From NCBI RefSeq assembly GCF_020297485.1, contig NZ_JAIWZC010000001.1, positions 2,542,001 to 2,606,000 of the forward strand: a stretch of 64,000 bases of DNA, written 5' to 3'. Both the position numbers and the translations under genes were made by a program. Under the pieces are notes generated by a model that did no database searches, had not been told where the DNA came from, and was given only the letters and a program-made list of their open reading frames with translations. Every line of letters starts with the position of its first letter. The first letter of the stretch is position 1. This document shows positions 4,168-54,796 of this stretch, one piece after another. The stretch comes from Enterocloster clostridioformis (GTDB taxonomy: Bacteria > Bacillota > Clostridia > Lachnospirales > Lachnospiraceae).

Positions 4168-4215
4168 ATATTAATGTGCTAAATTATGTACAATTATGAG
4201 GAGATTTACCAAACC

Positions 4216-4917
4216 ATGAAAAAAGCAGCAAAATTCGCTCTGATAAAGACCATCCCCATATTTCTGGGCTACATATTCTTAGGAATCGCCTTTGGACTCC
4301 TGTTACAGAAATCCGGTTTAAGTGTGTTCTGGGCCTTTCTCATCAGTACCCTTGTCTATGCGGGTTCCATGCAGTTTGCTCTGGTGGGCATTCTCACCGG
4401 CGGCTTAAGCTATGTGACCACAGCTGTCATGACCCTGTTTATCAACAGCCGCCATGCCTTCTACGGACTCACCTTCATTGAGCGTTTCAAGGAAATGAGA
4501 AAAGCCTATCCTTACATGGTATTTTCCCTGACGGATGAAACTTATTCCCTGTTATGTTCCATGGCACGTCCGTCCGCATTTACGGACAAAGAATGGAAGG
4601 CAGCCACTTTCTTTACAGCGTTTTTTGACCAGTGCTACTGGATAGCCGGGTCGGTGCTTGGCGCCCTTATGGGTGAGCTGATTACCTTTGACACCACAGG
4701 TATTGATTTTGCCATGACCGCCCTGTTCGTGGTCATATGTGTGGACCAGTGGAAGGCGGCAAAGACCCACATACCGGCTGTCACCGGTTTTATATGCGGC
4801 GCACTGTTTCTGGTGCTCATCCGCTCTTCCAACTTTATCCTTCCTGCCCTGGCAGCTGCCGTAGCCATGCTGCTGTTCCTGCGCAGGACCGTGGAACAGA
4901 AAATGGAGGAGGATTAA
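4216..4917 (+). CDS. azlC: AzlC-family branched-chain amino acid exporter, large subunit
   Basis: A polytopic membrane protein of about 233 residues with the AzlC-family hallmark stretch PIFLGYIFLGIAFGLL near the N-terminus, GSMQFALVGIL, and INSRHAFYGL. AzlC works with the small AzlD subunit encoded directly downstream (stop and next start separated by three bases) to export branched-chain amino acids or analogues at the cytoplasmic membrane. The start is placed at ATG 4216 (MKKAAKF), preceded by GAGGAG at 4198-4203. An upstream in-frame ATG at 4186 lies almost on the predicted transcription start and has no ribosome site. Substrate is inferred from the family only. Confidence 0.92.
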   Translation: MKKAAKFALIKTIPIFLGYIFLGIAFGLLLQKSGLSVFWAFLISTLVYAGSMQFALVGILTGGLSYVTTAVMTLFINSRHAFYGLTFIERFKEMRKAYPYMVFSLTDETYSLLCSMARPSAFTDKEWKAATFFTAFFDQCYWIAGSVLGALMGELITFDTTGIDFAMTALFVVICVDQWKAAKTHIPAVTGFICGALFLVLIRSSNFILPALAAAVAMLLFLRRTVEQKMEED

Positions 4918-4920
4918 ACC

Positions 4921-5250
4921 ATGACCCACTCAAATTATGTACTAATTACCATACTGATTTGCGCTCTGTGCACCCAGATTACCCGGTGGCTTCCCTTCCT
5001 CCTCTTCGGCGGTAAAAAGGAAGTCCCCGGGCTGGTCCGCTACCTGGGGACCAGCCTCCCGGCCGCCATCATGGCCGTGCTGGTGGTCTACTGCCTGAAG
5101 GGAATCACACCTTTAGCCTGCCCCTATGGCCTGCCGGAGCTCATATCCGTTGCCGTGGTGGTGGGGCTCCACCTCTGGAAGGGCAATACCCTTGCCAGCA
5201 TCGCGCTGGGAACGGTATGCTACATGCTGCTTGTGCAGATGGTATTCTGA
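4921..5250 (+). CDS. azlD: AzlD-family branched-chain amino acid exporter, small subunit
   Basis: A 109-residue hydrophobic protein with about three to four membrane segments, matching the usual length of AzlD proteins. The N-terminal TQITRWLPFLLFGGKKEVP and the mid-region GTSLPAAIMAVLVVYCLK are the family's conserved blocks. It follows azlC by three bases and is therefore translationally coupled. The pair forms a two-component exporter; AzlD is required for AzlC function in characterised systems such as Bacillus subtilis. Nothing unusual is seen. Transcription probably ends at the hairpin at 5377-5418. Confidence 0.92.
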   Translation: MTHSNYVLITILICALCTQITRWLPFLLFGGKKEVPGLVRYLGTSLPAAIMAVLVVYCLKGITPLACPYGLPELISVAVVVGLHLWKGNTLASIALGTVCYMLLVQMVF

Positions 5251-5252
5251 TG

Positions 5253-5318
5253 TTGCTCTGACCATGTTCTGGCTATACTCAGCCAATATTCTGGCCGTAT
5301 CCTGTCAATATTCTGGCC
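5253..5318 (+). repeat. Three imperfect 22-bp tandem repeats
   Basis: Three head-to-tail units end at 5274, 5296 and 5318, each finishing in CTGGCY. The last two share AATATTCTGGCC exactly; the first has ATGTTCTGGCT. They lie just after azlD and before its terminator. No function is evident. Confidence 0.7.
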
Positions 5319-5376
5319 GAACTCCAGGGGCGGCCTCCGGCAGTTTGAATATCTGCATCGCAATAAAGTCCCATAC

Positions 5377-5424
5377 AAAAAGCCTGTTCACGCCGCATGA
5401 TGGTGTGAACAGGCTTTTCTATAT
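5377..5424. terminator. Bidirectional terminator between azlD and the HD-GYP gene
   Basis: A 17-bp stem, 5377-5393 with 5402-5418 (AAAAGCCTGTTCAC arm, one G-U pair), with an 8-base loop. The arms carry A and T runs on both sides, so it can stop transcription from both converging units. Confidence 0.88.
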
Positions 5425-5481
5425 AGATTTTCCCCACGGCCTTTTACTTATACCTTTCCAGCTGCATTCCCCATATCACCG

Positions 5482-8046
5482 TCATGCATCCGTCCCTTCC
5501 AGCTCCCTGCCGCAGACGCCGTTCCCTTCATTCAGAACCGGCCTGATAATTCCATCCTTCACCAGGCCGATAAATACCGGCACCAGCTCCGGATCAAACT
5601 GTGTTCCCGCGCCCCGTTCCAGCTCATTGACCGCGAATTCCACCGACATGCTGGGCTTATAGCTGCGCTTGGATACCATGGCGTCAAAGGAATCTGCAAT
5701 GCACAGGATTCTGGCCGCCAGAGGAATATCCTTCCCTGCGATGCGCCTGGGGTATCCCCTTCCGTCATACCGCTCATGGTGTCCCAGGACAGCGGGAATC
5801 ACATAATCCATGGAGGGAAGATGGCGTATGATTTCCACGGATGCCTCCACGTGGCGCTTCATGGTGCTGTACTCCTCGTCCGTCAGTTTGCCGGTTTTGT
5901 TCAGAATATTTTCCGGTATCCCGATTTTCCCGATATCGTGAAGCAGGGCTGACTCCTTAAGAATCTCCTGGTACTCCTCGCTGGTTTTCAGGGCCTGCCC
6001 CATGGCATGGGCATAATAAGCCACATTCTTGGAATGCTGGAATGTATAGTGGTCTTTTGCGTCGATAGCAGCCGTCAGGGCGTAGATGGTTGGAGCATAT
6101 TCGGAATACATGCTTCGGTGCTTCTTTGCCAGTCCCTCATCCGTATCCCTCACACCGATGATTCCGTCTGAGTATACCCGGATTCCGTTCTTTCCGGAAC
6201 GCTTCACATGGTATACCGCGCAGTCCGCATTGGATATGAGCTCATTCATGGACGCTGCCGCGTACGGAGCAGCGCAGATTCCGCAGCTGACAGTCAGCGG
6301 CTTTAAGTAAGTATCCGTACAGTCCAGATTCATGTTCTGAATCTGCCGTGAAATATTCTCAGCCAGATTCTGCGCTGAATAGATATCATAGTCAGGCAGG
6401 ATAACGGCAAATTCCTTGCCGCTGTAACGTCCGCAGTAACCGTTATCCCCCACGGTCCCCTGTATGATACGCGCAATATGCACCAGTGCCTTATCTCCCT
6501 CATGATTGCCGTAAAGCTGGTTGTACAGCTTAAAATCATCCACGTTGAAGATGACAAGGGCCAGGGAAGTGCGCTTGCATTTTACGTAATTTTCCTCCAG
6601 TGTCTCGCAGAAATATTTCCGGTTCAAAAGTCCGGTAAGCTCATCTGTCCTGGCTTCCTCATATGCCTTTTCGTAGAGCCTGGAGTTCTTTACCGCAATG
6701 GAGCTGACGGATTCAATGGAGTTAAGGAATATGATGTCCTCCTCGGAATACCCCCCGGCACGCATCTTTCCCCGCTTCTCCTTGCCCCCCATAAGCACCA
6801 GTCCGGCCAGGTCGTCCCCGCCCTTAAGAGGCAGGATACACTCAATCTTAAGGACCTCCATCTGGTATTTTTCTTCCTCCCACATGGACTTGTATTCCAC
6901 GGTCCTTCGGAAATCCTTAAGCAGCAGACAGGAGTCATGGCTTTTAAGCCAGTTGATGAGCGGCGCGCTGCCTGCCAGAGAAAAATTCTTGTCATCCAGG
7001 GGACTGCTGCTGAACACCGCAGGATAATTTCCCTGTGAATCCTTGATGCAAATATAAATTTTCCTTGTGTGCAGGGTACTTCCTATGACGTTCACCAGGG
7101 CATTGAGGATTTCCGTCAGTCTGAGTGACTGGGACACAATGGCCGTGTATTCGCTGAGCCGTTCTGTCTGGCTCATCTCTTCCTTAATGAAAATCCGGTC
7201 AAAAAATCCCTTGGCCACAATGTAAATCAACAGGGTGACCATCATGGTCATAGTAGCCACAATCATAACGCTGAAGGGCGCCAGCATTGGCACATCCCTG
7301 CGGATGATGCCGTCCAGAGTCTGAGCCACATTATAAAAGGCCAGGGCGCTTACTGCCATGGCAATGATATAGCAGTTGCCTCTGGATACCAGCAGTGTCA
7401 TGCGGAACACGTGCCTGGAATAAAGGGTATAGAACATCACCCCTGCATTCAGAATCCCTGACAGGATATCTATGGGGAAACCATTGAACAGCGGCACAGC
7501 CATATTTCCCGCAAAAAGCAGAAATATGCCTAAAAGCAGCGGAACCACTTTGGCCTTAAGGGCCCTGTTTTTCCGGCTGCTCCATATGATGGCGGCTGTA
7601 TGTATGATTACCAGGAAGCAGAGTCCGTACATAATGCTGGCACGCCAGTCCATATGATAGACAAACACGGCGCTGGCCCCGTTCCACTCGATGGCGGGCG
7701 GCTGGACCAGGCTTCCTGTCCATATGTTATAGAGATTCACCAGAAGGATAAGCACCAGCCACATTTTGTGGGAGCCTTTGGCCTTATGGCCGCAGAAATC
7801 CCTGATGAAGCAGAAAAACGCACATGGCACCAGGCTGATTCCTGCCAGCGAAAGATGGAACCACAGCTCATAGGACGGCCAGGCCCGGAGCCTCATCAAA
7901 AGAGAGCCGCCGGTCCACAGAATCATGGCGCCCAGCACAGCGATAAAATCACGAATCAGCCGTGATTTCTTAGCCGACATAAAAGCCAGCATAAGAAAGG
8001 TATAGAAATATAAAGCTGTTATGGATATAAAAACATAGCTTCTCAT
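5482..8046 (-). CDS. 7TM-GAF-GGDEF-HD-GYP cyclic-di-GMP signalling receptor
   Basis: An 854-residue membrane receptor. The first 220 residues form about seven hydrophobic segments of the 7TM histidine-kinase-N type. A GAF-like region follows (about 310-450), then a GGDEF domain (about 470-625) opening with DELTGLLNR, and an HD-GYP domain (about 645-840). The HD-GYP site looks intact: LHDIGKIGIPENIL, HHERYDGRGYP, and AARILCIADSFDAM. The GGDEF signature is degenerate, reading RYSGKEF where RYGGEEF is expected, so the cyclase is probably inactive and may bind GTP as a regulator. The likely net activity is c-di-GMP hydrolysis controlled by an extracytoplasmic or membrane signal. It starts 14 bp after the GH3 gene stop and is the last gene of that operon. 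AGGAG precedes the ATG. Confidence 0.92.
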   Translation of the reverse strand: MRSYVFISITALYFYTFLMLAFMSAKKSRLIRDFIAVLGAMILWTGGSLLMRLRAWPSYELWFHLSLAGISLVPCAFFCFIRDFCGHKAKGSHKMWLVLILLVNLYNIWTGSLVQPPAIEWNGASAVFVYHMDWRASIMYGLCFLVIIHTAAIIWSSRKNRALKAKVVPLLLGIFLLFAGNMAVPLFNGFPIDILSGILNAGVMFYTLYSRHVFRMTLLVSRGNCYIIAMAVSALAFYNVAQTLDGIIRRDVPMLAPFSVMIVATMTMMVTLLIYIVAKGFFDRIFIKEEMSQTERLSEYTAIVSQSLRLTEILNALVNVIGSTLHTRKIYICIKDSQGNYPAVFSSSPLDDKNFSLAGSAPLINWLKSHDSCLLLKDFRRTVEYKSMWEEEKYQMEVLKIECILPLKGGDDLAGLVLMGGKEKRGKMRAGGYSEEDIIFLNSIESVSSIAVKNSRLYEKAYEEARTDELTGLLNRKYFCETLEENYVKCKRTSLALVIFNVDDFKLYNQLYGNHEGDKALVHIARIIQGTVGDNGYCGRYSGKEFAVILPDYDIYSAQNLAENISRQIQNMNLDCTDTYLKPLTVSCGICAAPYAAASMNELISNADCAVYHVKRSGKNGIRVYSDGIIGVRDTDEGLAKKHRSMYSEYAPTIYALTAAIDAKDHYTFQHSKNVAYYAHAMGQALKTSEEYQEILKESALLHDIGKIGIPENILNKTGKLTDEEYSTMKRHVEASVEIIRHLPSMDYVIPAVLGHHERYDGRGYPRRIAGKDIPLAARILCIADSFDAMVSKRSYKPSMSVEFAVNELERGAGTQFDPELVPVFIGLVKDGIIRPVLNEGNGVCGRELEGTDA

Positions 8047-8060
8047 ACAATCAGTGTCTC

Positions 8061-9695
8061 CTAGTATCTCCTGTGCCCGTCAAAAGCTGCCTGCATCTTT
8101 ATCATTTCCTGAATATCATGGATGGATGGGTTGATATGCCTCAGTGTCTTTCCGGTCTTTTCCCGGTAGGATGCAAAGGTGCCGCACCGAAGAATGGTTA
8201 TCTCCAGCGGGTCCATGCCCAGTATCCGTTTCAAATCATGGTAATCCTGGTCCACGTATTTAAAATAAATGGTCAGGTGTTCCTTCAGAAGTTCCCGGCT
8301 GACGGCCCGGTTCACCACACAGCCGGGCGCCAGCTCCACGTACATATGGAGATAGGGCCTTCCCCTGTCCTCGGTAAACTCCTTCAGAGCCGCCCAGTCC
8401 GTCACATCAATTCCCGAAAGGCTGATAACATTCTTAATGGAATTTTCCGAAATCCTTGTAAACCCGGCAATATCAATAATATCCGGCACCCGGTCAATGT
8501 ACTCAAACCTGGGAATCCGCGTCTCATCCTCCTTGCTGGCAAGTCCCAGACAGCGGTAGACATCCCCCACCCGGTACCGGGCAAATGCCCCGCCTTTCAA
8601 CACAGTAAGGACAATTTCATATACTTCTCCGGCTGCCACCTCATCCATACATATGGCCCTGGGAACATAGGAGGGATCATCCAGATTTTTGTACATTTCC
8701 GTTTCCGGTATGAATTCATAAAAGCATGCATCCGGGAAAAAGTAAAGTCCGTTGCGGTTCCATGTCTCTGTCCCGATAAAACTGGGTTCTGTCCCCGCAA
8801 ACACTTCCACCGGCCTGATACCCCACAACTCCTCCAGGTCATCTTTATAGCAGCGGTTATCTGTTCCAGCGCACAAAAATCCCTTCAGTTTGAACAGGTC
8901 CTTAGGCATCAGTCCCCGTCCTTCCTTCTCACACTGTTTTTTCGCCTTAAGATACCGCAGTGTCATGGAAGGAGGCATGGTAAACATTTTTTTCAGGAAG
9001 GATCCGCCCTTCTTACCGCCCTCAGACAGGCTGGCAATGCTCATACTCACATAATAAGCCACGCTGCCCATGCCGAAGAAGAAATCAATCCCCTTTCCCA
9101 GCCCCATCTTAAATCCCTTCTTATTCCGCTCGGAAAAGGTCATATTCACGGCCTCGTCCACCGGAGGAAGGAACTCTATGTGGAGTTCGTCCGACAATCC
9201 CAGTGGAATCAGGCCAGTGATATAGGGCAAAGGCGCCAGTCCATACAAAAATGTATCGCCGATTCCGATGTCAAAGCTTCCCCTGCCCTTGCTGGTAGCC
9301 ATCATCAGGCAGGTCAGGATATTATTCTTGTAGGTTTTCAGCATACCGCTGGTGTAGGGCGCCACCTTGATAGGATGCTTTCCGCCCTCCCATGTGGTCT
9401 GAATCCATATGATCGGTTTATCAGGAAGCATGTCCTCCTTTTTCAAAAGAAGGACATCCGCATAATCTTCGTAGGTGGTCAGCGGCACCATGGACCGGAA
9501 CTCATCTATGCTCTCCGGCCTCCTATCCTTTAGAATCTTCTTTCCAAGAGGACTTGCGCACCAGAGTCCAATCTGCTCCTCCAAAAGCCTTCTCTGGATT
9601 TTCATATAGGATTCCAGGTCCAGGTCCAGAAAACCGCAGTATTCCTGCCATATCCTGTCATATTCCTGATTGGTCAGCTTTTCCTCAAATGTCAT
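8061..9695 (-). CDS. GH3-family acyl-adenylating (amido-synthetase-like) enzyme
   Basis: A 544-residue member of the GH3 auxin-responsive promoter family, ANL-like enzymes that adenylate a carboxylic acid and, in plants, couple it to an amino acid. The third ATP motif is clear (FARYRVGDVYRCLG, around residue 375) and an FAGTEPSFIGTE block matches the second (YASTE-like) motif. The first phosphate loop is unorthodox: TTWEGGKHPIKVAPYTSG (about 100-117) in place of a Ser/Thr/Gly loop. A bacterial substrate cannot be deduced. It sits between an ICMT-like methyltransferase gene (gap 6 bp) and a c-di-GMP receptor gene (gap 14 bp), so the three are surely cotranscribed. The family call is strong; the reaction is inference. 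Confidence 0.88.
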   Translation of the reverse strand: MTFEEKLTNQEYDRIWQEYCGFLDLDLESYMKIQRRLLEEQIGLWCASPLGKKILKDRRPESIDEFRSMVPLTTYEDYADVLLLKKEDMLPDKPIIWIQTTWEGGKHPIKVAPYTSGMLKTYKNNILTCLMMATSKGRGSFDIGIGDTFLYGLAPLPYITGLIPLGLSDELHIEFLPPVDEAVNMTFSERNKKGFKMGLGKGIDFFFGMGSVAYYVSMSIASLSEGGKKGGSFLKKMFTMPPSMTLRYLKAKKQCEKEGRGLMPKDLFKLKGFLCAGTDNRCYKDDLEELWGIRPVEVFAGTEPSFIGTETWNRNGLYFFPDACFYEFIPETEMYKNLDDPSYVPRAICMDEVAAGEVYEIVLTVLKGGAFARYRVGDVYRCLGLASKEDETRIPRFEYIDRVPDIIDIAGFTRISENSIKNVISLSGIDVTDWAALKEFTEDRGRPYLHMYVELAPGCVVNRAVSRELLKEHLTIYFKYVDQDYHDLKRILGMDPLEITILRCGTFASYREKTGKTLRHINPSIHDIQEMIKMQAAFDGHRRY

Positions 9696-9701
9696 TCCAG
9701 T

Positions 9702-10235
9702 TCACCGCCTTTTCCACAGTCTGGGTAGTAAAAATGGTACTTGTTCCTGGTAATCCCTGTAGTCGCAAAATTCCTCTACAAATATAAGCCTGTCCTGATA
9801 CCAGGCATACAGAAGGTTCAGAAAAGAAAGACACAGACCGAGCATCACCCGGTTCGGATTCCCTGTGGACAGGCCCATACAGAAAAAACAGCCAAAAAAC
9901 CACCATATGCCCGGATGACGGCACCAGCCATACATACCTGAGCGGCAGACCTTGTGCCGGTCCGCCTCCTGGCAATAAGTACTGTCAAAGGGCAGCGCAA
10001 AATACAGCGTATAAATCAGCATCGCCAGAAAAAACGCGCCCGGAAGGAGCCAGACTGACTGTCCCTTAACCCCTGAGGAAACACAAGAATACACCATTCT
10101 TCCTCCCACCACAGCCAGCAGCAGGTTGCCTGCCGCAAAAAGCGGGGCGAAGCCATTTTTTTTCAAAAAAACCCGATTCCAGTCATATAGGAAAAACATC
10201 CCAAAAGCCCCTAATCCAAAGCCCCAGTCCAACAT
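9702..10235 (-). CDS. ICMT/PEMT-like integral membrane methyltransferase
   Basis: A 177-residue membrane protein with about five hydrophobic segments. The C-terminal half carries the isoprenylcysteine carboxyl methyltransferase / phospholipid methyltransferase signature: GMYGWCRHPGIWWFFG (about 113-128), then an acidic residue in FVEEF, then DYRDYQEQVPFLLPRL at the C-terminus. RHP and the Glu are the SAM-binding residues in this family. It is the first gene of the operon with the GH3 enzyme and the HD-GYP receptor; AGGGGGG precedes the ATG. Known relatives methylate lipid or small hydrophobic carboxylates or amines. The true substrate is unknown, but the GH3 neighbour suggests a carboxylate-derived small molecule. 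Confidence 0.82.
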   Translation of the reverse strand: MLDWGFGLGAFGMFFLYDWNRVFLKKNGFAPLFAAGNLLLAVVGGRMVYSCVSSGVKGQSVWLLPGAFFLAMLIYTLYFALPFDSTYCQEADRHKVCRSGMYGWCRHPGIWWFFGCFFCMGLSTGNPNRVMLGLCLSFLNLLYAWYQDRLIFVEEFCDYRDYQEQVPFLLPRLWKRR

Positions 10236-10611
10236 CTATATCCCCCCTGCCCAATATATAAAAGGGAGCCCGCTCTCTTTATGACTCCAGACCCCCAACC
10301 ATATCCAAAATAAATCCTCCCATCTGTTCTCAACCTTGGGAAATTATGTAAAGTACCATGTAAATATTAACTATTTGCCGAATAGTATAAATTCTATCAT
10401 AAATATGTCGAAAAAGGAAGGGATTTACCCGGATATTATTTATTCTTTCTTATAAATAATTAGGTTATTTTGTAATCATATTAAATTTATTGTTTTTTAG
10501 GTACAATTATCCTCCCCTCGCCTGTTTAAGGATACTCCGGCCGGGAAGATTATTAATCCAGATATTTACAAGGGTACAAAGAATTGAGCCGTCAATTCTC
10601 ATGTGGCCATG

Positions 10612-10644
10612 GCAGAAAAAAAGGGACAGTCCAGGCTATCCCTT
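10612..10644 (-). terminator. Intrinsic terminator ending the tRNA-Thr region
   Basis: On the minus strand AAGGGATAG pairs with CTGTCCCTT (10644-10636 with 10629-10621), loop of six, followed directly by a run of seven T residues. The stop codon of the small ORF at 10636-10743 lies inside the stem. Confidence 0.8.
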
Positions 10645-10743
10645 AAAATCCATATCCGTTGTAAATTCCCTGCCGCAATATGGGCAAGTGACACGAGCCA
10701 CTGGCTCCTCTGCCCCGTTTACAGTTTCATACGTATTCACCAA
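10636..10743 (-). CDS. Possible 35-residue zinc-knuckle-like peptide
   Basis: An open frame on the minus strand, too short for ordinary gene calling, reads ...NTYETVNGAEEP and then ARVTCPYCGREFTTDMDFKG before a TAG located in a terminator stem. CPYCGREF resembles half of a zinc ribbon. The frame has TTG or GTG starts only (10743 or 10740), with no convincing ribosome site, and it lies just past the tRNA-Thr terminator. It could be a real small protein, the tail of a decayed gene, or chance. The compact fit to the terminator is the main argument for reality. Confidence 0.3.
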   Translation of the reverse strand: MVNTYETVNGAEEPVARVTCPYCGREFTTDMDFKG

Positions 10744-10752
10744 TGCGGAACA

Positions 10753-10782
10753 AAAAGAAAAAAGCCCGGTAAATACCAGGCT
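10753..10782 (-). terminator. tRNA-Thr terminator
   Basis: On the minus strand AGCCTGGTA (10782-10774) pairs with TACCGGGCT (10771-10763) with one mismatch, followed by TTTTTTCTTTTTG. It lies 8 bp beyond the mature tRNA 3' end. Confidence 0.82.
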
Positions 10783-10789
10783 ATCCACA

Positions 10790-10862
10790 AGCTGCTGACG
10801 GGAATCGGACCCGTGACCTCCGCACTACCAATGCGACGCTCTACCGACTGAGCCACAGCAGC
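10790..10862 (-). tRNA. tRNA-Thr (anticodon GGT)
   Basis: A 73-nt cloverleaf on the minus strand: acceptor GCTGCTG/CAGCAGC, D arm GCTC/GAGC, anticodon stem TCGCA/TGCGG with loop TTGGTAG giving anticodon GGT, T arm ACGGG/CCCGT and discriminator T. CCA is not encoded. It has its own consensus promoter and terminator. Confidence 0.95.
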
Positions 10863-10898
10863 TTATTCTGTTTTGGTACGCTCTCGCGGGCCTTGTAT

Positions 10899-10927
10899 AT
10901 ATTATCATGACCACATGGTTTTGTCAA
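10899..10927 (-). promoter_or_regulatory. tRNA-Thr promoter
   Basis: Minus strand TTGACA at 10927-10922, exactly 17 nt, then TAATAT at 10904-10899, 36 bp upstream of the tRNA. A GC-rich stretch (GCCCGCGAGAGCG) follows the -10 box, as expected for a stringently controlled stable RNA promoter. Confidence 0.82.
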
Positions 10928-11079
10928 CAATAATTTTCAATTTTTTCTTCCATTCTATCCCCGCTCATTCAAACCGCTGCCCCCTCAAGCCTCCCAGGCA
11001 ATTGTGAGCAGCGGTATGTGAGCCGGCTTTCTCAAAGCATCTGAAAATAAGAATCCTAAAATCAATCCTATTCCAAATA

Positions 11080-12027
11080 TCAGAAAATCCCGTCATACCC
11101 TTCCCGCAGCGTATCACAGGAACGCCCCAGCTTCTCCAGCTCCTCCGGTGTCAGGGACAGCGGCAGGACTCTCTGTACTCCGTTCTGGTTTATGATGCAG
11201 GGAACGCCTGCAAACACGTCCATCTGGCCGTACTCTCCCCGCAGCATGGCGGATACGGTAAGTACGCTGTGCTCATCCCCCAGGATGGCCTTGGTTATTC
11301 TGGTAAGGGCCATTCCAATACCATAATAGGTGGCATTCTTGGCCTCTATGATTTTGTAGGCGGCAGTGCGGACCTCCTCCTCAATGTCATCAAACCGCTG
11401 CCTGCACAACGCTTCCCCGTTTTCCCCGCACAGCTCCAGAATGGGCTTGGTGGCCAGCAGCGCCTGGCTCCACGGCACGAACTCGCTGTCCCCATGCTCT
11501 CCCATGACATAGGCGTGGACATTTCTCGGGTCCGCCTTCAGATAATCGCCTAACAGGTACCTGAGTCTGGCTGTGTCCAGGGCTGTTCCTGTTCCCATCA
11601 CCCGTCTTGGATTAAAGCCCGACAGGGTACAGGTTATCCTGGTCATGATGTCAACCGGATTGGTTGCCACCAGAAACAGGCCATTGAATCCCGATGAGGT
11701 AACCGGCTCAATGATGGATCGGAACACCTCGGCATTCCTTTTCAGAAGGTCCAGACGGGTTTCACCCTGTTTCTGCGCCACGCCGGCACAGATGACCACG
11801 ATATCCGCATCCCTGCAGTCATCGTACTCCCCTGCGTATATTGTCATGCTGGAATTGGCAAATGCCAGGCCATGGTTTAAATCCATTGCCTCCCCCTCGG
11901 CCCTCTTCTTGTTCACATCAATGAGCACCAGCTCATCGCACACCGACTGATTCAGAAGACAGTAGGCATAGCTCATGCCCACCATTCCAGTTCCTACGAT
12001 TACCACTTTTCTCTTATCTGCTCTCAT
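11080..12027 (-). CDS. ldh: L-lactate dehydrogenase
   Basis: A 315-residue NAD-dependent LDH that reduces pyruvate to L-lactate at the end of fermentation. The Rossmann motif GTGMVGMSYA is at residues 12-21, the substrate-binding loop contains CAGVAQKQGETRLDLL with the conserved Arg, ATNPVDIMT is present, and the catalytic His lies in YVMGEHGDSEFVPWS (about 172-186). Gln in AQKQGE is the residue typical of lactate over malate dehydrogenase. AAGGAG precedes ATG 12027. It lies 122 bp after pilT and is probably a separate unit. Allosteric fructose-1,6-bisphosphate control is common in the family but cannot be read here. Confidence 0.95.
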   Translation of the reverse strand: MRADKRKVVIVGTGMVGMSYAYCLLNQSVCDELVLIDVNKKRAEGEAMDLNHGLAFANSSMTIYAGEYDDCRDADIVVICAGVAQKQGETRLDLLKRNAEVFRSIIEPVTSSGFNGLFLVATNPVDIMTRITCTLSGFNPRRVMGTGTALDTARLRYLLGDYLKADPRNVHAYVMGEHGDSEFVPWSQALLATKPILELCGENGEALCRQRFDDIEEEVRTAAYKIIEAKNATYYGIGMALTRITKAILGDEHSVLTVSAMLRGEYGQMDVFAGVPCIINQNGVQRVLPLSLTPEELEKLGRSCDTLREGYDGIF

Positions 12028-12149: not shown

Positions 12150-13211
12150 TTATCTGGCCAGTTTCTTTTCCATGAGCTCACTGTTGCTGCTGTAAGCCGC
12201 CGCATTTTCACGGGAAATCACTCCGTCACGGTATAGTTTAATAAGGCTGTTATCCATGGATACCATACCTTCCTCCTGGGAGGTGGCAATGACTCCGTCT
12301 ATCTGGTGAATCTTGGATTCACGTATCATATTGCGGATTGCATTGTTTAAAAACATGATTTCAAATGCCGGCTGCACCCCGCCGTCCACAGTGGGTATGA
12401 GCTGCTGGGATATGACCGCATCCAGCACCATGGCCAGCTGGGTCCTTATCTGCTGCTGCTGATTTGGCGGAAATGCATCAATGACACGGTCGATGGTATT
12501 GGCCGCCCCCACGGTGTGAAGGGTGGAGAGAATCAGATGGCCTGTCTCCGCTGCTGTCATGGCTATGCTGATAGTCTCATAATCTCTCATTTCTCCTAAC
12601 AGGATGACATCCGGCGCCTGGCGCAGGGATGCCCTCAGGCCAGTAACGTAGCTGTCCGTATCCGTAACAATCTCTCTCTGGGTCACCACGCTCTGTTTAT
12701 GCCTGTGCAGGTATTCAATGGGGTCCTCCAGTGTGATGACATGGGCATTTCTGGTGCTGTTGATTTCATCAATAATACAAGCCAGGGTCGTGCTTTTGCC
12801 GCTGCCTGCCGGTCCGGTCACCAGTACCATTCCCTTGGTAAGCCTGGATACGCCGATGATACTGTCCGGCAGATGAAGCTGTCCGGCATCCGGCAGTTCA
12901 AAACGCACCACGCGGATGATTCCCGCCAAGGATCCTCTCTGGCGGAACACACTGGCCCTGAAACGCGACACCCCAGGGATGGCAAAGGAGAAATCATCAT
13001 CTCCGTGGGACTGGACCTTATCCATGCCCCGGTTCTTTGCCAGGCCGTATATCTCGGTAATCATCTTATCCATCTCGTCGGGCATGATCCGGTTATCACC
13101 CTGATAGATAATCCGGCCGCCAATCTTATAGGAGAAGGGCATGCCTGGAATAAGAAATATGTCAGCCGCATTCTGCTCCACGGCCGATGTAAGCAATTCC
13201 ATCACATTCAT
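12150..13211 (-). CDS. pilT: PilT-type pilus retraction ATPase
   Basis: A 353-residue secretion NTPase of the PilT class. An N-terminal PAS-like domain is followed by Walker A GPAGSGKSTT (about 134-143), the Asp box TLEDPIEYLHRHK, Walker B-like DVILLGEMRD and the His box GHLILSTLHT. NNAIRNMIRESK near the C-terminus matches the AIRNLIRE motif characteristic of PilT retraction ATPases, not PilB assembly motors. No PilB is visible among its neighbours, which is odd: either PilB lies elsewhere or this protein supplies the only motor. It is the last gene of the pilus-like cluster at 12.1-17.2 kb. The start ATG follows GGAGCAAAACAG. Confidence 0.93.
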   Translation of the reverse strand: MNVMELLTSAVEQNAADIFLIPGMPFSYKIGGRIIYQGDNRIMPDEMDKMITEIYGLAKNRGMDKVQSHGDDDFSFAIPGVSRFRASVFRQRGSLAGIIRVVRFELPDAGQLHLPDSIIGVSRLTKGMVLVTGPAGSGKSTTLACIIDEINSTRNAHVITLEDPIEYLHRHKQSVVTQREIVTDTDSYVTGLRASLRQAPDVILLGEMRDYETISIAMTAAETGHLILSTLHTVGAANTIDRVIDAFPPNQQQQIRTQLAMVLDAVISQQLIPTVDGGVQPAFEIMFLNNAIRNMIRESKIHQIDGVIATSQEEGMVSMDNSLIKLYRDGVISRENAAAYSSNSELMEKKLAR

Positions 13212-13236
13212 CTGTTTTGCTCCTTTTGCCTCTGTT

Positions 13237-13716
13237 TTATTCCTGGAATGGGGCTGCTCCGCCCCACACAGGCATTGAATTATCTATTTCATACTCATCA
13301 CTGGCATATACATACCATGATTTTATATCGTAATGTTTTTCACCGCACATGAGAACCAGCTCAATGCGCAGGGACTGTCCCCTGTCCATGGGGATGTCCG
13401 TGGAAATAAGACCGCTCTCCCTGTCATAAAGCTCTCCCAGCCTGTCCTTGATATCCAGGCTGCACTGGGTGGAATCCTTTTCCTCCCCCATTTCCTCTGT
13501 CAGGACCTGGTCCACTTCCTTAAGCCACTGCTGCCCCCTGCTGTCCGCCTCATAATATGCCCGGACCGCCTCCCCGTTTCGCCCGGCCAGCTTTAAATCG
13601 CCCTGGGCGCTGCTTAAGGACAGCAGTCCAAAGGTAGCCATGCACAGAACGATGAAAATAAGAATCAGGGACGACGCCCCTATATTCACTTTATTCCTGG
13701 ATGCCTCTCCTGCCAT
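13237..13716 (-). CDS. Pilus-cluster protein with N-terminal membrane anchor
   Basis: A protein of about 159 residues I cannot assign to a named family. After a short polar leader (MAGEASRNKVN) comes one hydrophobic segment (about 12-32, ASSLILIFIVLCMATFGLL) followed by SLSSAQGDLKLA, resembling the anchor of pilin-like minor subunits. The remainder is soluble and acidic, with a predicted helix around DSRGQQWLKEVDQVL. There is no prepilin peptidase Gly-Phe site. ATG 13716 was preferred to 13740 because AAGGAAAGG precedes it. It lies 25 bp before pilT and 93 bp after the previous gene. Probably a minor structural component or assembly factor of the pilus-like machine. Confidence 0.7.
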   Translation of the reverse strand: MAGEASRNKVNIGASSLILIFIVLCMATFGLLSLSSAQGDLKLAGRNGEAVRAYYEADSRGQQWLKEVDQVLTEEMGEEKDSTQCSLDIKDRLGELYDRESGLISTDIPMDRGQSLRIELVLMCGEKHYDIKSWYVYASDEYEIDNSMPVWGGAAPFQE

Positions 13717-13833
13717 CTGCCTTTCCTTTCCGTGTTTCATTTTCCCGAACCTTGCCGGCGGCTGAATATTCCTGAATCTTAAGCCCTGCCGCCGGCTGCA
13801 TGTAAAACTGCGCGCAGCGGGGCCTGCATGCTC

Positions 13834-14349
13834 TTAGGGCTGCGCATAGGTCTCTGTCTGCAAACGGTACAGCAGCTTTCCCTTGTCAGTTCCTCTGGCA
13901 TAGCGCATGATAAGTATGTCCGCCCGCTTCATTTTATCCACAGTTCCGGTGTATATGACGCCCAAAAAGGACGGTTCATTGTCAGGTTCGGTCTCCTCCC
14001 AGCTGTTGTTCCAGTACATGGTATGTATACCTACGTAGCCTTCACTCTGTACCAGCTCCTGGTTCCATTCAGCCTGTTCCCGGTTTTTCCCGTCAGCATC
14101 TGCCAGGTGTTCCCATATATTACGGTCCGGAAGCATCTCCGGCCACCTAAGAGACTGCCCCGCCTTCAGCTCTTCTGCCAGGCTCTGCGCCTTTAACACC
14201 GCCTGATTTATGTCCCGGGCATCCCTGCTTATGTTGTCAGCCTTCACGAACACCAGAACACAGATACTGGCGCAGATGATAAAGAAACCCACCACCACCA
14301 GCATTTCCATTAAAAATGGCCCTGAACCGGACCCGCTTTTCCTATTCAT
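13834..14349 (-). CDS. Pseudopilin-like protein
   Basis: About 171 residues. The N-terminus has a short basic leader (MNRKSGSGSG), then PFLMEMLVVVGFFIICASIC, a 20-residue hydrophobic helix with a Glu (ME) four residues in, much like the type IV prepilin pattern although the cleavage-site Gly is displaced. The rest is a soluble domain with IHTMYWNNSWEETEPDN. ATG 14349 is preferred because GGAGG lies 11 bases upstream; a TTG at 14358 is too close to it. It overlaps the preceding DUF4860-type gene by 8 bp. Probably a minor pilin; processing by a prepilin peptidase is uncertain. Confidence 0.72.
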   Translation of the reverse strand: MNRKSGSGSGPFLMEMLVVVGFFIICASICVLVFVKADNISRDARDINQAVLKAQSLAEELKAGQSLRWPEMLPDRNIWEHLADADGKNREQAEWNQELVQSEGYVGIHTMYWNNSWEETEPDNEPSFLGVIYTGTVDKMKRADILIMRYARGTDKGKLLYRLQTETYAQP

Positions 14350-14836
14350 CCGTCTCAAGTCCTCCGCTCCGCAGGGAAAGCTCCAGGCTTCCGCCGCCCT
14401 CTCCCACGGTCTCTATATGCAGCAGCCTGCCTTTCCTGGAAAGCTTCAGGCCCCGGCATTCCAGAATCTCCAGACCGTCCGCAAACCCCAAACCGCTGGA
14501 TGTGTCTGTGAACAATTCCCGGATGCTCCCATCGTCCCAGTAAATCCATGTGACGTATTCTGATTCCCCGATTTCCTGTTTCATCTCCAGCACCTGGGTT
14601 CCATCCACATCCACCACATTTACCATCCCGGCCCGGTCACCCTGGCGCACCTTGTTGGCAATGTAGCTCAGAGCTGTGCTGCCTGTATAATTGGCGTCGC
14701 TGCGCACATTGATATTTTCATATACCCGGCTGCCAATCAGCACTGTGAAAAGGGCACACAGCACAAATACCAGAAATAACAGCATGGTAAAAAGCACGCT
14801 AACGGCATTTCCCTTCTTGTCTGTCTTCCGATTCAT
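14342..14836 (-). CDS. DUF4860-type pilus-cluster membrane protein
   Basis: A 164-residue protein with one N-terminal membrane helix (about 12-33, SVLFTMLLFLVFVLCALFTV) preceded by basic residues. The following region (VYENINVRSDANYTGSTALS and YIANKVRQGD) and the FTDTSSGLGFADGLEIL block match my recollection of the DUF4860 family, found in Clostridia beside PilC and PilT genes. No enzyme motif is visible. It overlaps the downstream pseudopilin gene by 8 bp and follows the 15179 gene by 13 bp, so it belongs to the same transcript. Likely a minor pilin or an inner-membrane assembly component. Confidence 0.75.
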   Translation of the reverse strand: MNRKTDKKGNAVSVLFTMLLFLVFVLCALFTVLIGSRVYENINVRSDANYTGSTALSYIANKVRQGDRAGMVNVVDVDGTQVLEMKQEIGESEYVTWIYWDDGSIRELFTDTSSGLGFADGLEILECRGLKLSRKGRLLHIETVGEGGGSLELSLRSGGLETDE

Positions 14837-14849
14837 AACTGTATGCCCC

Positions 14850-15179
14850 CTACTCGTCTATGGGTATGATGGTGATTTCCGGCATCACATTGGATGCAAA
14901 ACCATCGTAAAACACATTGTATTTCTTCCTGTTAATCTGGATCGCATAATTCTCCTCCAGATATCCCACGCTGGGAGGATAACGGCCCTCAATGGCATAG
15001 CACTGGACCGAAGCCCTTGCCACTGCCTTCCTGAGAGTCTCCTCCTCCCTTGCGCCTGTCCTCCCTGAAAAATTCAGCACAGCCGCCGCAAATACCGCCA
15101 CCACGGCCGCCATGGCTGCCAGGGACAGAATGTAACCCAGCGCCTGGTTCTTCTCTTTTTTCTGAGACTTAACCTTCAT
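14850..15179 (-). CDS. Small pilin-like protein
   Basis: 109 residues with a lysine-rich start (MKVKSQKKEKNQ), one hydrophobic helix (about 14-34) and a short extracytoplasmic domain containing CYAIEGRYPPSVGYLEENYA. The YPPS.GYLE pattern recurs in pilin-like proteins just after the helix, where residues are counted toward a folded head (compare GRYPTS in GspG-like subunits). There is no canonical GFTLIE cleavage site. AGGAGG lies six bases before the ATG. It is placed directly after the PilC gene, the usual position for the major pilin in Gram-positive type IV pilus operons, so it may be the principal subunit; that is inference. Confidence 0.7.
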   Translation of the reverse strand: MKVKSQKKEKNQALGYILSLAAMAAVVAVFAAAVLNFSGRTGAREEETLRKAVARASVQCYAIEGRYPPSVGYLEENYAIQINRKKYNVFYDGFASNVMPEITIIPIDE

Positions 15180-15196
15180 CTGCTGCCTCCTAACTG

Positions 15197-16255
15197 TTAT
15201 CCGATAGCGGACAATACGCCCACCAGTGGAAGCATGACGGACAGAAGGACAAGTCCCACTGATATGGCCAGAACTGCCACTATAGTCGGTTCAAACCTGG
15301 CAATCATATCGTCGATGGCGGTATCGGCCATCTCCTCATAATCCTGGGATATCTCGTCCATAACGCTGTCCAGATGGCCGCTTCTGGTTCCTACTTTAAT
15401 CATCTGCACATAAAAACCGGAAAACAGGCCGGTATCCTTCATGGCCTGGTAATAGCTCTCACCCGTCTGAAGCTGCTCCGAGCATTTTCCGATGCGGACC
15501 GCCACGCTTTCGTTCTCAACCAGCTCCTTTGCCAGGTCCATGCCCTTTTCCAGCTCCATACCGCTCTTTAAGGTCAGGGCCAGTACTGAGGTAAACCGGC
15601 GGTTAGCCACTGCCAGGGCAATCTTGCTGCGGCCCTTCACGAAACTCACAAAACGCTCCACCAAAGCAAAACGTTTGCCGAATTTGGAGGCTGTCCAGAT
15701 CCCGCATAACACCAGGGCCAGCACAGCCCCCACAATAAGGGCGCCGCCGCTTAACCAGCCTCCCAGCCTCATGGCCGAGGCTGCCACAGGAGGCATCCGC
15801 GCCCCCAGCTGCTCATATACCTTGTTGAACACAGGCATGACCTTGGAAAACAGCACAAAGAGGACCACCAAAAGCATTACCACCATCATCACAGGATATG
15901 TGACCGCATTCTTTATGGCCCGCAGGAGCCGGTATTCCTTCTCATAATAATCGGACAGCGATTTCATCATCTGGTCCATGGTTCCTGTCTGCTGGCCCAG
16001 CTTGGCCATATGCACCACATAAGCCGGGAAAACGCCCGTATCCTCCATAACCTTGAAGAAGGGGTCCCCCAGCTCCACGCCCTCTGCCATGTACAAAAGC
16101 ATATCCTTCTCGCTCTGCGCGGCCGCGTCCTCAGCCATAATGGCCAGCCCTTCCTCCAGCGGAACAGCCGCTTCCAACAGCAGGGATATCTGCAGACAGA
16201 AGGCCGACAGCTCCTCATAGGAATACCGGTAATAAGACTCTCCCTTTTTCGCCAT
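15197..16255 (-). CDS. pilC: PilC/GspF-family inner-membrane platform protein
   Basis: 352 residues with the twofold T2SSF architecture: two cytoplasmic helical domains (about 12-135 and 215-335), each followed by membrane helices. The repeat signature is visible as LGDPFFKVMEDTGVFPAYVV and TGESYYQAMKDTGLFSGFYV, with membrane segments around 120-145, 175-195 and a C-terminal helix ending LMLPLVGVLSAIG. It forms the platform that transmits ATPase motion to the growing or retracting pilus. GGAGG precedes ATG 16255. It is 18 bp upstream of the small pilin gene and 16 bp after the transglutaminase gene, so it is central to the operon. Confidence 0.92.
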   Translation of the reverse strand: MAKKGESYYRYSYEELSAFCLQISLLLEAAVPLEEGLAIMAEDAAAQSEKDMLLYMAEGVELGDPFFKVMEDTGVFPAYVVHMAKLGQQTGTMDQMMKSLSDYYEKEYRLLRAIKNAVTYPVMMVVMLLVVLFVLFSKVMPVFNKVYEQLGARMPPVAASAMRLGGWLSGGALIVGAVLALVLCGIWTASKFGKRFALVERFVSFVKGRSKIALAVANRRFTSVLALTLKSGMELEKGMDLAKELVENESVAVRIGKCSEQLQTGESYYQAMKDTGLFSGFYVQMIKVGTRSGHLDSVMDEISQDYEEMADTAIDDMIARFEPTIVAVLAISVGLVLLSVMLPLVGVLSAIG

Positions 16256-16270
16256 CTCTTTTGCCTCCCC

Positions 16271-17194
16271 TTAATAGCTGTATTTTGCCCGGTAGTTAGA
16301 GCCGTTTCCAATGTACTGCATGATTTCCTGGCTCTGTCCGCTGGAGGACGCAAACGTGGGGTCCATCAGCTTCCAGCTGTTGCCATCAAAATAGATGATA
16401 TTATCAACCCATCCCTGGCCTTCCAGATATACATTAATCCACGCGTGATACAGATTCCCCGTATAACCCACTACCAGCTTGGTGGGAATGTCCTGGGACC
16501 TGAGCATGGCTGTCATGAGAGCCGCATAGTCAAAACAGATACCCTTTTTCTGCGCCAAAACCACATCCACATTGGGCAGATAGCCGGACTGGACCGAACT
16601 TGCCTTGGCCGTATCATAGGTAACGTTGTTGATTACATAATTATAAACATTTGACACCACGCCCAGCTGGTCCGTTGCGCTGGCAGCCACGGACGCGCCT
16701 GTCTGCACCGCGGCGCTGGCCGCATTAAAATTCACATACTGGTTGGGGTAAAGGAAGGGTCCGAACTGATTGGTTATGCTGGCATTTACATTCTGGCTGA
16801 ACGCCTGGGAATACTGGTTTCCCTGGATATTTTCAAACACCTTCACCGAATAGCTGCCGCTGCCCTCAGACAGAGGGAACACCTCGTATACGCCGCTGCT
16901 GCTTAAATCATATGTATATGTCTCGGAACCGCTTTTTGTAATCTGAACCTTAATCTTGCCAACGCTACCCGTATACTTTACCATGATATAGCCCTCTGAC
17001 ACATTGGATGCATCCAGAGTGGCCTTCTCGTTGCTGTATGCAGTGACCCCGGAAGCAATGGGAGTCAGTACATGGCTTCCGGCAGGCTTTGTGTAAGCCA
17101 GGGCCGTCGCCGGTGCCTGGATGCTGCTGACGGCAAAAAAAGCCGCTGCCGCTGCCGCCGCAAACTTTCCAACAGGTTTATATGCTGTCTTCAT
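16271..17194 (-). CDS. Secreted transglutaminase-like protein
   Basis: A 307-residue exported protein. It has a signal peptide (basic MKTAYKPVGK, hydrophobic Ala-rich core, ALA-Y site near 33), an N-terminal beta-rich region, and a transglutaminase-like core with all three catalytic elements: Cys in KKGICFDYAALM (about 217-228), His in YHAWINVYL and Asp in LMDPTF near the C-terminus. Such enzymes act on cell-surface peptides as proteases, amidases or cross-linkers. It is the first gene of the pilus-like cluster, 16 bp ahead of pilC, hinting that its substrate is the fibre or its anchor. AAGGAG precedes ATG 17194. The fold assignment is firm, the role inferred. Confidence 0.88.
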   Translation of the reverse strand: MKTAYKPVGKFAAAAAAAFFAVSSIQAPATALAYTKPAGSHVLTPIASGVTAYSNEKATLDASNVSEGYIMVKYTGSVGKIKVQITKSGSETYTYDLSSSGVYEVFPLSEGSGSYSVKVFENIQGNQYSQAFSQNVNASITNQFGPFLYPNQYVNFNAASAAVQTGASVAASATDQLGVVSNVYNYVINNVTYDTAKASSVQSGYLPNVDVVLAQKKGICFDYAALMTAMLRSQDIPTKLVVGYTGNLYHAWINVYLEGQGWVDNIIYFDGNSWKLMDPTFASSSGQSQEIMQYIGNGSNYRAKYSY

Positions 17195-54621: not shown

Positions 54622-54639
54622 AACAATCAATTGAATAAA

Positions 54640-54746
54640 CTCTTCAGGGCAGGGTGCAATTCCCTACCGGTGGTACAGCCCACGAGCCGCAAGGCATGAT
54701 TCGGTGAAACTCCGAAGCCGACAGTACAGTCTGGATGAAAGAAGAT
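54640..54746 (+). ncRNA. FMN riboswitch (RFN element)
   Basis: Contains the highly conserved RFN blocks in order: CTTCAGGGCAGGGTG, TCCCTACCGGTGGTA, CAGCCCACGAGCC, GATTCGGTGAAACTCCGAAG, CCGACAGTACAGTC and TGGATGAAAGAAGA. Binding of FMN is known to favour the downstream terminator, repressing riboflavin synthesis genes. It lies 264 bp upstream of ribD, unusually far because two terminators follow it. Confidence 0.97.
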
Positions 54747-54796
54747 GAATCGTTGACATGGACGCGCTTACGCGCTTTTCGTGGCTGGCTGACAGT

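Follow-up and report, generated by a model that had tools for sequence, protein, structure and literature searches.

The DNA analysed here, referred to as the window, comprises 64,000 nucleotides of Enterocloster clostridioformis (assembly GCF_020297485.1, contig NZ_JAIWZC010000001.1, positions 2,542,001–2,606,000 of the forward strand). On its minus strand lies an operon of three genes that joins a pair of synthase-like enzymes to a receptor with a cyclic di-GMP (c-di-GMP)-type output. The three open reading frames (10235–9702, 9695–8061 and 8046–5482, with gaps of 6 and 14 bp) lie exactly where a sequence-only reading of this DNA had placed them and encode: (i) gene 1 (9702–10235), an ICMT/PEMT-like membrane protein of 177 aa and putative S-adenosylmethionine (SAM) methyltransferase; (ii) gene 2 (8061–9695), a GH3-like acyl-adenylating enzyme of 544 aa and putative acyl-amide synthetase; and (iii) gene 3 (5482–8046), a receptor of 854 aa with a seven-transmembrane (7TM), a GAF-like, a degenerate GGDEF and an HD-GYP region. 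An intrinsic-terminator hairpin followed by a T run just past gene 3 (5372–5425, minus strand; −27.2 kcal/mol, z −8.23, equalled by 0 of 200 shuffles) closes the three-gene unit; a pattern-rule terminator scan omitted it because its loop is longer than the rule allows. About 150 bp upstream of gene 1, a promoter-like site, TCGACA-16-TATACT (10384–10411, minus strand), matches the consensus at 10 of 12 positions and is weak evidence, the region containing 10 such sites against a shuffle mean of 6.8 (sd 2.2), no great excess. No c-di-GMP or other riboswitch was detected at the operon at the gathering threshold.

Conservation of the unit was followed in loci selected by scanning GTDB species genomes with GH3 peptide patterns only, the best 80 of 141 relatives being retained. 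Gene 1 and the receptor are each present in 79 of these 80 loci, both misses (L033 and L077) falling at contig ends, and strand and gene order are the same in all 80 as far as the contigs extend. Some copies carry frame breaks, for example in the receptor of L004, L027 and L064 and in the GH3 gene of L038 and L043, which may be draft errors or decay. Three overlapping genome samples (own genome in all three, G327 in two) were also searched: 200 evenly drawn genomes of the family, 398 of the phylum and 393 of the class. Because only some candidates were scored in each genome, with a ceiling of 12 to 16 in the family searches, weak paralogues may have escaped detection. In the family sample, 14 of the 15 GH3 matches are strong, and the 14 genomes that hold them are also the ones with the 14 matches to the 7TM region and the 14 to gene 1, the three genes being neighbours every time; the fifteenth GH3 (G433) is of a different, generic kind. 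Gene 1 or the receptor input without the rest was found in none of the 200 genomes at the thresholds applied. The phylum sample yielded 13 GH3 matches; gene 1 and the receptor accompany each of the 10 strong ones (in G261 the set is split across two contigs) and are missing beside the three weak ones. In the class sample GH3 occurs in six genomes with its partners in 6/6, the receptor reading frame of one (L127) being shortened. Weak matches to generic GH3 proteins (G433; G114, G348 and G367), which have neither partner, were left out of the counts.

Routine separation of the three genes in related genomes, which the sequence-only reading had held to be incompatible with its proposal, was not seen in the samples searched. 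At E≤1e-8 the 7TM region was found in the 10 phylum genomes with the full set and in G335, whose orphan receptor, 1 in 398 genomes, is the sole separated member. That protein (L119, 4741–7284, minus strand) is a 7TM-GGDEF-HD-GYP receptor with an SGKVF motif in a genome with no match to the GH3 clade, and is possibly a "solo" listener to the signals of others. A same-genus genome, G484, illustrates the opposite state. Its flanks correspond to those of the window (LDH, tRNA-Thr, azlCD and, judged by eye, a glnS-like gene), but the whole operon is missing, the tRNA and an azlD-matching stretch lying about 110 bp apart; in this comparison (L130 4181–9269 against window 4186–12027) the tRNA-Thr has the opposite orientation with respect to the flanks, and an ars-like cluster, again judged by eye, lies between LDH and the tRNA. 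Presence and absence of the operon thus go as a block, and the tRNA-Thr site may be one of repeated gene gain and loss. In the window the tRNA-Thr (10789–10863) is upstream of the operon, the intervening ~550 bp holding no evident gene, and azlC and azlD are downstream in convergent orientation. The divergence of the three proteins is correlated (r 0.76–0.87 over 69 loci), which, having no housekeeping control, shows common inheritance only. The trio is inherited as a single unit whose output is of the c-di-GMP type, and its co-occurrence is far from chance. The coupling of the synthase-like genes to the receptor is well supported. Among the records that carry it are some under the names Coprococcus comes, Eubacterium ramulus, Hungatella hathewayi and [Clostridium] clostridioforme. 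The unit is not specific to gut anaerobes, as records named Acetobacterium and Fusibacter also have it.

The receptor had been described as a c-di-GMP phosphodiesterase with a 7TM input domain. Both the 7TM and the HD-GYP parts of this description are borne out, but a GGDEF domain had been overlooked; HisKA_7TM, GGDEF and HD_5 all score above their Pfam cut-offs in gene 3. The input region (residues 1–290; 7177–8046, minus strand) was delimited by a HisKA_7TM match over residues 16–215 (PF16927, 37.1 bits against a cut-off of 28.6; matched at E≤1e-3 by 36 of 42 rows), further hydrophobic segments after it, hydropathy and the lysine/arginine pattern of the loops. Its near-invariant loop residues P57, W62, P117, Y130, P191 and D193 sit in predicted outside loops; conservation of the outer face as a whole is a weak, non-significant trend (p 0.11), and a sequence comparison of the 7TM region with solved structures gave no match at E≤1. 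Residues 291–460 (6667–7176, minus strand) are assigned by position to a putative GAF-like linker; Pfam calls GAF in the receptors of L098 and L099 and in some homologues, with no GAF match in the window receptor.

The GGDEF domain (6187–6651, minus strand; Pfam E 1.8e-35) is degenerate, with NVDDFK in place of DxDxFK and SGKEF in place of GG[DE]EF. In the alignment of 52 receptors (the window and 51 of the 79 loci), K544, at the third position of the GGDEF motif (6415–6417), is lysine in 52/52, and the first aspartate of DxDxFK (501) is asparagine in 44 and asparagine or serine in 51. Both lost residues presumably bind metal, going by PleD. The HD-GYP domain (5584–6069, minus strand; HD_5 E 1.4e-42, 145.8 bits against 27.2) has an intact signature (HDIGKIGIP, HHERYDGRGYP), and all 13 HD-GYP residues checked are conserved in 52/52 aligned receptors. 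Given the loss of the presumed metal-binding GGDEF residues and the intact HD-GYP signature, gene 3 is expected to lack cyclase activity and to act as a phosphodiesterase, which would hydrolyse c-di-GMP through its HD-GYP domain.

Distant versions of the operon retain gene 1, GH3 and the 7TM region, the latter recognised by the A4 profile, and differ in their output domains. In the main clade a dead GGDEF accompanies HD-GYP; L096 has SGEEF with HD-GYP, L097, L100, L125 and L126 have an intact GGEEF with HD-GYP, and L098 has GGDEF with HD-GYP. The L099 receptor has GGDEF only, with no HD-GYP match of E under 2 across its 16 kb locus. At E≤1e-5 Pfam's HisKA_7TM model does not pick up the receptors of L098 and L099, both of which match the A4 profile. 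Among 68 database proteins with this 7TM region, 66 have GGDEF and HD_5 and two GGDEF only, one of these being labelled partial and the other ending early in the HD domain. The constant input and varying output indicate that the two synthase-like genes accompany the sensor, and that the sensor feeds c-di-GMP wherever it is seen. A ligand-making pair and its receptor would be expected to look like this.

Gene 2 was proposed to be a GH3-family acyl-adenylating enzyme. The fold, motif III and the motif II glutamate agree with this proposal, but the ATP-binding motif I is altered. By hmmscan, GH3_M is over the Pfam cut-off (45 bits against 23.6) and GH3_N (23.0) and GH3_C (18) are slightly under the same cut-off of 23.6; in a profile search of the genome, where gene 2 is the single GH3 match, GH3_N is above cut-off at 24.9. 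The full-length GH3 fold, including the C-terminal domain, is present. Both profile and fold comparisons match gene 2 to plant GH3.5, GH3.6 and GH3.8, which are named indole-3-acetate amido synthetases; in the fold comparison, PaaK-type phenylacetate ligases match at similar Z. The YRVGD motif noted earlier is real, forming part of an R-Y-R-x-G-D pattern found in 51/51 aligned homologues, and Y374, R375, G377 and D378 of motif III and E303 of motif II are likewise conserved in 51/51. The canonical motif I, S/T-S-G-T-x-G..K, is replaced by TTWEGGKHPIK (window 9366–9398), of which T100, T101, W102, E103, G105 and K110 are present in all 51 homologues. This motif varies by clade among L096–L099, L125 and L126 (TSGKTG, TTWKGG and TTWEGG, with TSGKTG/TSGKAG in L098/L099) and is fixed in the main clade; the change appears to be an unusual rewriting of the adenylation P-loop. 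Because of it we refer to gene 2 as a GH3-like divergent clade rather than a canonical member, with ATP-dependent acyl-amide formation as its putative activity.

Gene 1 had been called an ICMT-like methyltransferase. Its RHP motif (R106, H107, P108, ahead of the last helices) is invariant in 56/56 aligned homologues, and Q-D-x-x-x-F and P-F-L-x-P are conserved near the C-terminus. The Pfam matches, however, are sub-threshold, at 17.2 against 24 for PF04140 (ICMT) and 22.5 against 25 for PF04191 (PEMT), and the superfamily also includes reductases; nor is the RHP motif confined to methyltransferases. PEMT is the commonest Pfam family among the homologues (17 of 56 rows). The longest homologue, P0189 (313 aa), consists of two gene 1 units in tandem and is not a fusion.

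A hint to the substrate comes from the neighbourhood. Flanking open reading frames of at least 90 aa were clustered over the 80 loci and the 14 largest clusters judged by eye. No fourth conserved gene emerged: ABC-transporter-like genes flank 20 of the 80 loci, DegV genes 11 (nine upstream, two downstream) and MATE-like genes eight, and none is constant. A DegV-family gene is the nearest upstream gene on the same strand in 9 of 79 loci, some of which have little or no upstream sequence; it lies within 3 bp or overlaps by 4 in L006, L007, L008, L010, L013 and L055, is 81 bp away in L009, and is 147 and 211 bp away in L039 and L026. Pfam confirmed the family in the four of these nine that were run, and the other five are similar by BLAST. 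The two downstream DegV genes are on the opposite strand, and the four DegV genes of the window's own genome all lie away from the operon. The upstream DegV genes form three groups, and their identity of only ~22–27% between groups points, though without a tree, to DegV having joined the surroundings of the operon on more than one occasion. FakB belongs to the DegV family. FakB proteins bind fatty acids and supply them for lipid synthesis. Together with the DegV neighbours, this moderately favours a fatty-acyl over an aromatic substrate.

The data lead us to propose that the operon is a self-contained system for the synthesis and perception of a signal, a reading to which we assign a probability of roughly 0.55. 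In this model, the soluble GH3-like enzyme would activate an acyl acid (a fatty acid being the likeliest) and join it to an amine or amino acid, as its fold and family suggest. The integral-membrane ICMT/PEMT-like enzyme would then methylate the polar end of the acyl amide, making it more lipophilic, and the 7TM domain would bind the product, probably from the outer side. The resulting change would be relayed through the GAF-like region and the catalytically dead GGDEF to the intact HD-GYP domain, so that c-di-GMP would be hydrolysed and its level fall. In distant relatives the same input would drive a cyclase or a cyclase/phosphodiesterase. The sequence-only reading had envisaged a locally made and perceived small molecule controlling c-di-GMP; the gene coupling that this idea requires is well supported, and the signal itself is the best reading of it. 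The identity of the product, its role as receptor ligand, the direction of sensing and the biological role are all putative. The specific form, in which a GH3-made, membrane-methylated fatty-acyl amide serves as a hormone-like autoinducer in Bacillota, read by a 7TM receptor that sets c-di-GMP directly, is bolder and, we judge, less likely than not.

Analogues of every proposed step have been published: the amide step corresponds to OlsH, the methyl-ester signal to PhcB, and Burkholderia diffusible signal factor (BDSF) with RpfR exemplifies a fatty-acid signal acting directly on a c-di-GMP phosphodiesterase. A signal synthase paired with a c-di-GMP receptor is a known kind of system: in RpfF/RpfR, and putatively in the operon, the receptor paired with the signal synthase itself carries the domains for c-di-GMP turnover. 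The parts here are unrelated. RpfF is of the crotonase type and RpfR has a PAS-GGDEF-EAL architecture; in the operon, by contrast, the synthase candidates are a GH3 and an ICMT/PEMT-like membrane enzyme, the receptor is of 7TM-HD-GYP type and the hosts are Bacillota. Domain scans of the three proteins found neither the RpfF crotonase-type domain nor PAS-type RpfR domains. The fatty-acid ligand BDSF raises the phosphodiesterase activity of RpfR (PMC8846402, PMC6361424). The operon is best read as a counterpart of RpfF/RpfR in function, assembled from unrelated components, the likeness being one of probable working only.

The plant GH3 amido synthetases JAR1, GH3.5 and GH3.12 are ~15% identical to gene 2 in fold alignments, and their motif I, SSGTSxGxxK, corresponds to TTWExG...K in gene 2. 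To our knowledge, plant GH3 enzymes have no receptor gene as partner. PhcS is a sensor histidine kinase, and we know of no GH3 in the PhcB/PhcS system and no c-di-GMP enzyme in its receptor. The Ralstonia methyltransferase PhcB makes a fatty-acid methyl ester sensed by PhcS (PMC8578825). In Singulisphaera, the OlsH/OlsG/OlsI operon places a GH3 enzyme beside an N-methyltransferase and forms an N-acyl amino acid (PMC12493201); the operon studied here differs in its receptor and membrane methyltransferase-like protein, and no constant OlsI-like partner was noticed. Generic Bacillota GH3 proteins of a different subfamily, from three genomes of the phylum (L105, L106, L107), share superfamily and phylum with gene 2 and match the operon clade at E 6e-14 to 2e-11, but keep SSGTTG. 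Judged by eye, their neighbours are MarR-like (L105, L106) or PadR-like (L107) and MFS-like genes, with no match to gene 1 or the 7TM receptor within 12 kb, and they are possibly a separate acyl-amide system.

The OlsH/OlsG arrangement, a GH3 enzyme sharing an operon with an N-methyltransferase, is also the starting point of the strongest competing explanation. The GH3 and PEMT-like enzymes might make a (methylated) N-acyl amino-acid membrane lipid, the 7TM/HD-GYP protein sensing membrane state or regulating lipid use; the prevalence of PEMT among gene 1 homologues and the feeding of fatty acids into lipid synthesis by FakB-type proteins would fit. Yet gene 2 scores only 10.6 bits on the OlsH model (NCBIfam NF052613, cut-off 620), the 80 loci hold no constant flanking gene (a rare acyltransferase partner could be missed by eye, without a domain scan), the constant third gene is a receptor, and, for a structural lipid, a set restricted to 14 of 200 family genomes would be surprising. 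We consider a membrane-lipid pathway unlikely, at perhaps one chance in five. The methyltransferase call on gene 1 is the weakest part of the signalling proposal and counts against it, as reductases belong to the same superfamily. Gene 1 could belong to the steroid-5-alpha-reductase/DUF1295 side and work as a membrane reductase on the acyl chain, which we regard as improbable given the invariant RHP and the prevalence of PEMT, and which concerns gene 1 alone and can coexist with signal synthesis and perception.

Plant GH3 enzymes inactivate auxin, and the operon might similarly terminate a signal: the 7TM region would sense an exogenous acid, such as a gut aromatic or fatty acid, which the GH3 and gene 1 would conjugate and methylate in order to end the signal or detoxify it. 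The plant GH3 and PaaK-type matches of gene 2 are consistent with this, as are the ABC-transporter-like and MATE-like flanking genes. The latter lie at scattered distances on both sides, outside the unit, however; the DegV neighbours point to fatty rather than aromatic acids, and a methyl cap is unneeded on a conjugate destined for disposal, so that we judge signal disposal rather unlikely, somewhat behind a membrane lipid though slightly ahead of the reductase reading of gene 1. Least probable among these alternatives is an intracellular feedback without a diffusible molecule, in which the two enzymes act on a metabolite or on the receptor itself, and the receptor reports the cell's own fatty-acid or SAM/ATP status. 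Output domains confined to one receptor chain, a membrane-bound gene 1 and DegV neighbours would suit such a fatty-acid gauge, but an input of this size, with its many helices, suggests a ligand in the membrane or outside the cell, and the near-invariant 7TM residues sit in predicted outside loops, though the overall trend is non-significant.

Other assignments were considered and set aside. Genes 1 and 2 gave no PADLOC match to defence systems, and gene 3 only weak HD-domain cross-matches to Cas3/Cas10 models; in a PHROGs scan covering genes 1 and 2, neither matched a phage family at E≤0.01. The GH3 protein has no match at E≤1e-10 in 72,556 plasmid records. No fusions of the three genes were noticed in the loci and listings seen, no systematic search having been made. 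Elsewhere in the window, genes resembling type IV pilus/type II secretion components (a PilT-like ATPase, a PilC-like membrane protein and pseudopilin-like proteins, judged by eye) occupy 12150–17194 on the minus strand, and a flavin mononucleotide (FMN) riboswitch (54636–54750, plus strand; 109.7 bits) is, besides tRNAs, the sole match of the riboswitch scan in the window.

A description of this operon was not found in the literature searched, a search that left most subscription journals and preprints outside its reach. Since the all-or-none operon supplies a probable synthase together with the receptor, the question of what this class of 7TM c-di-GMP receptors senses becomes directly testable, and an answer would assign a role to Bacillota GH3 proteins and possibly reveal gut acyl-amide chemistry. 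If the proposal is true, the operon would be a bacterial counterpart of the making and sensing of jasmonoyl-isoleucine in plants, common to gut commensals and environmental anaerobes, in which the sign of the output, cyclase or phosphodiesterase, would have been swapped in evolution with the synthase and sensor staying together.

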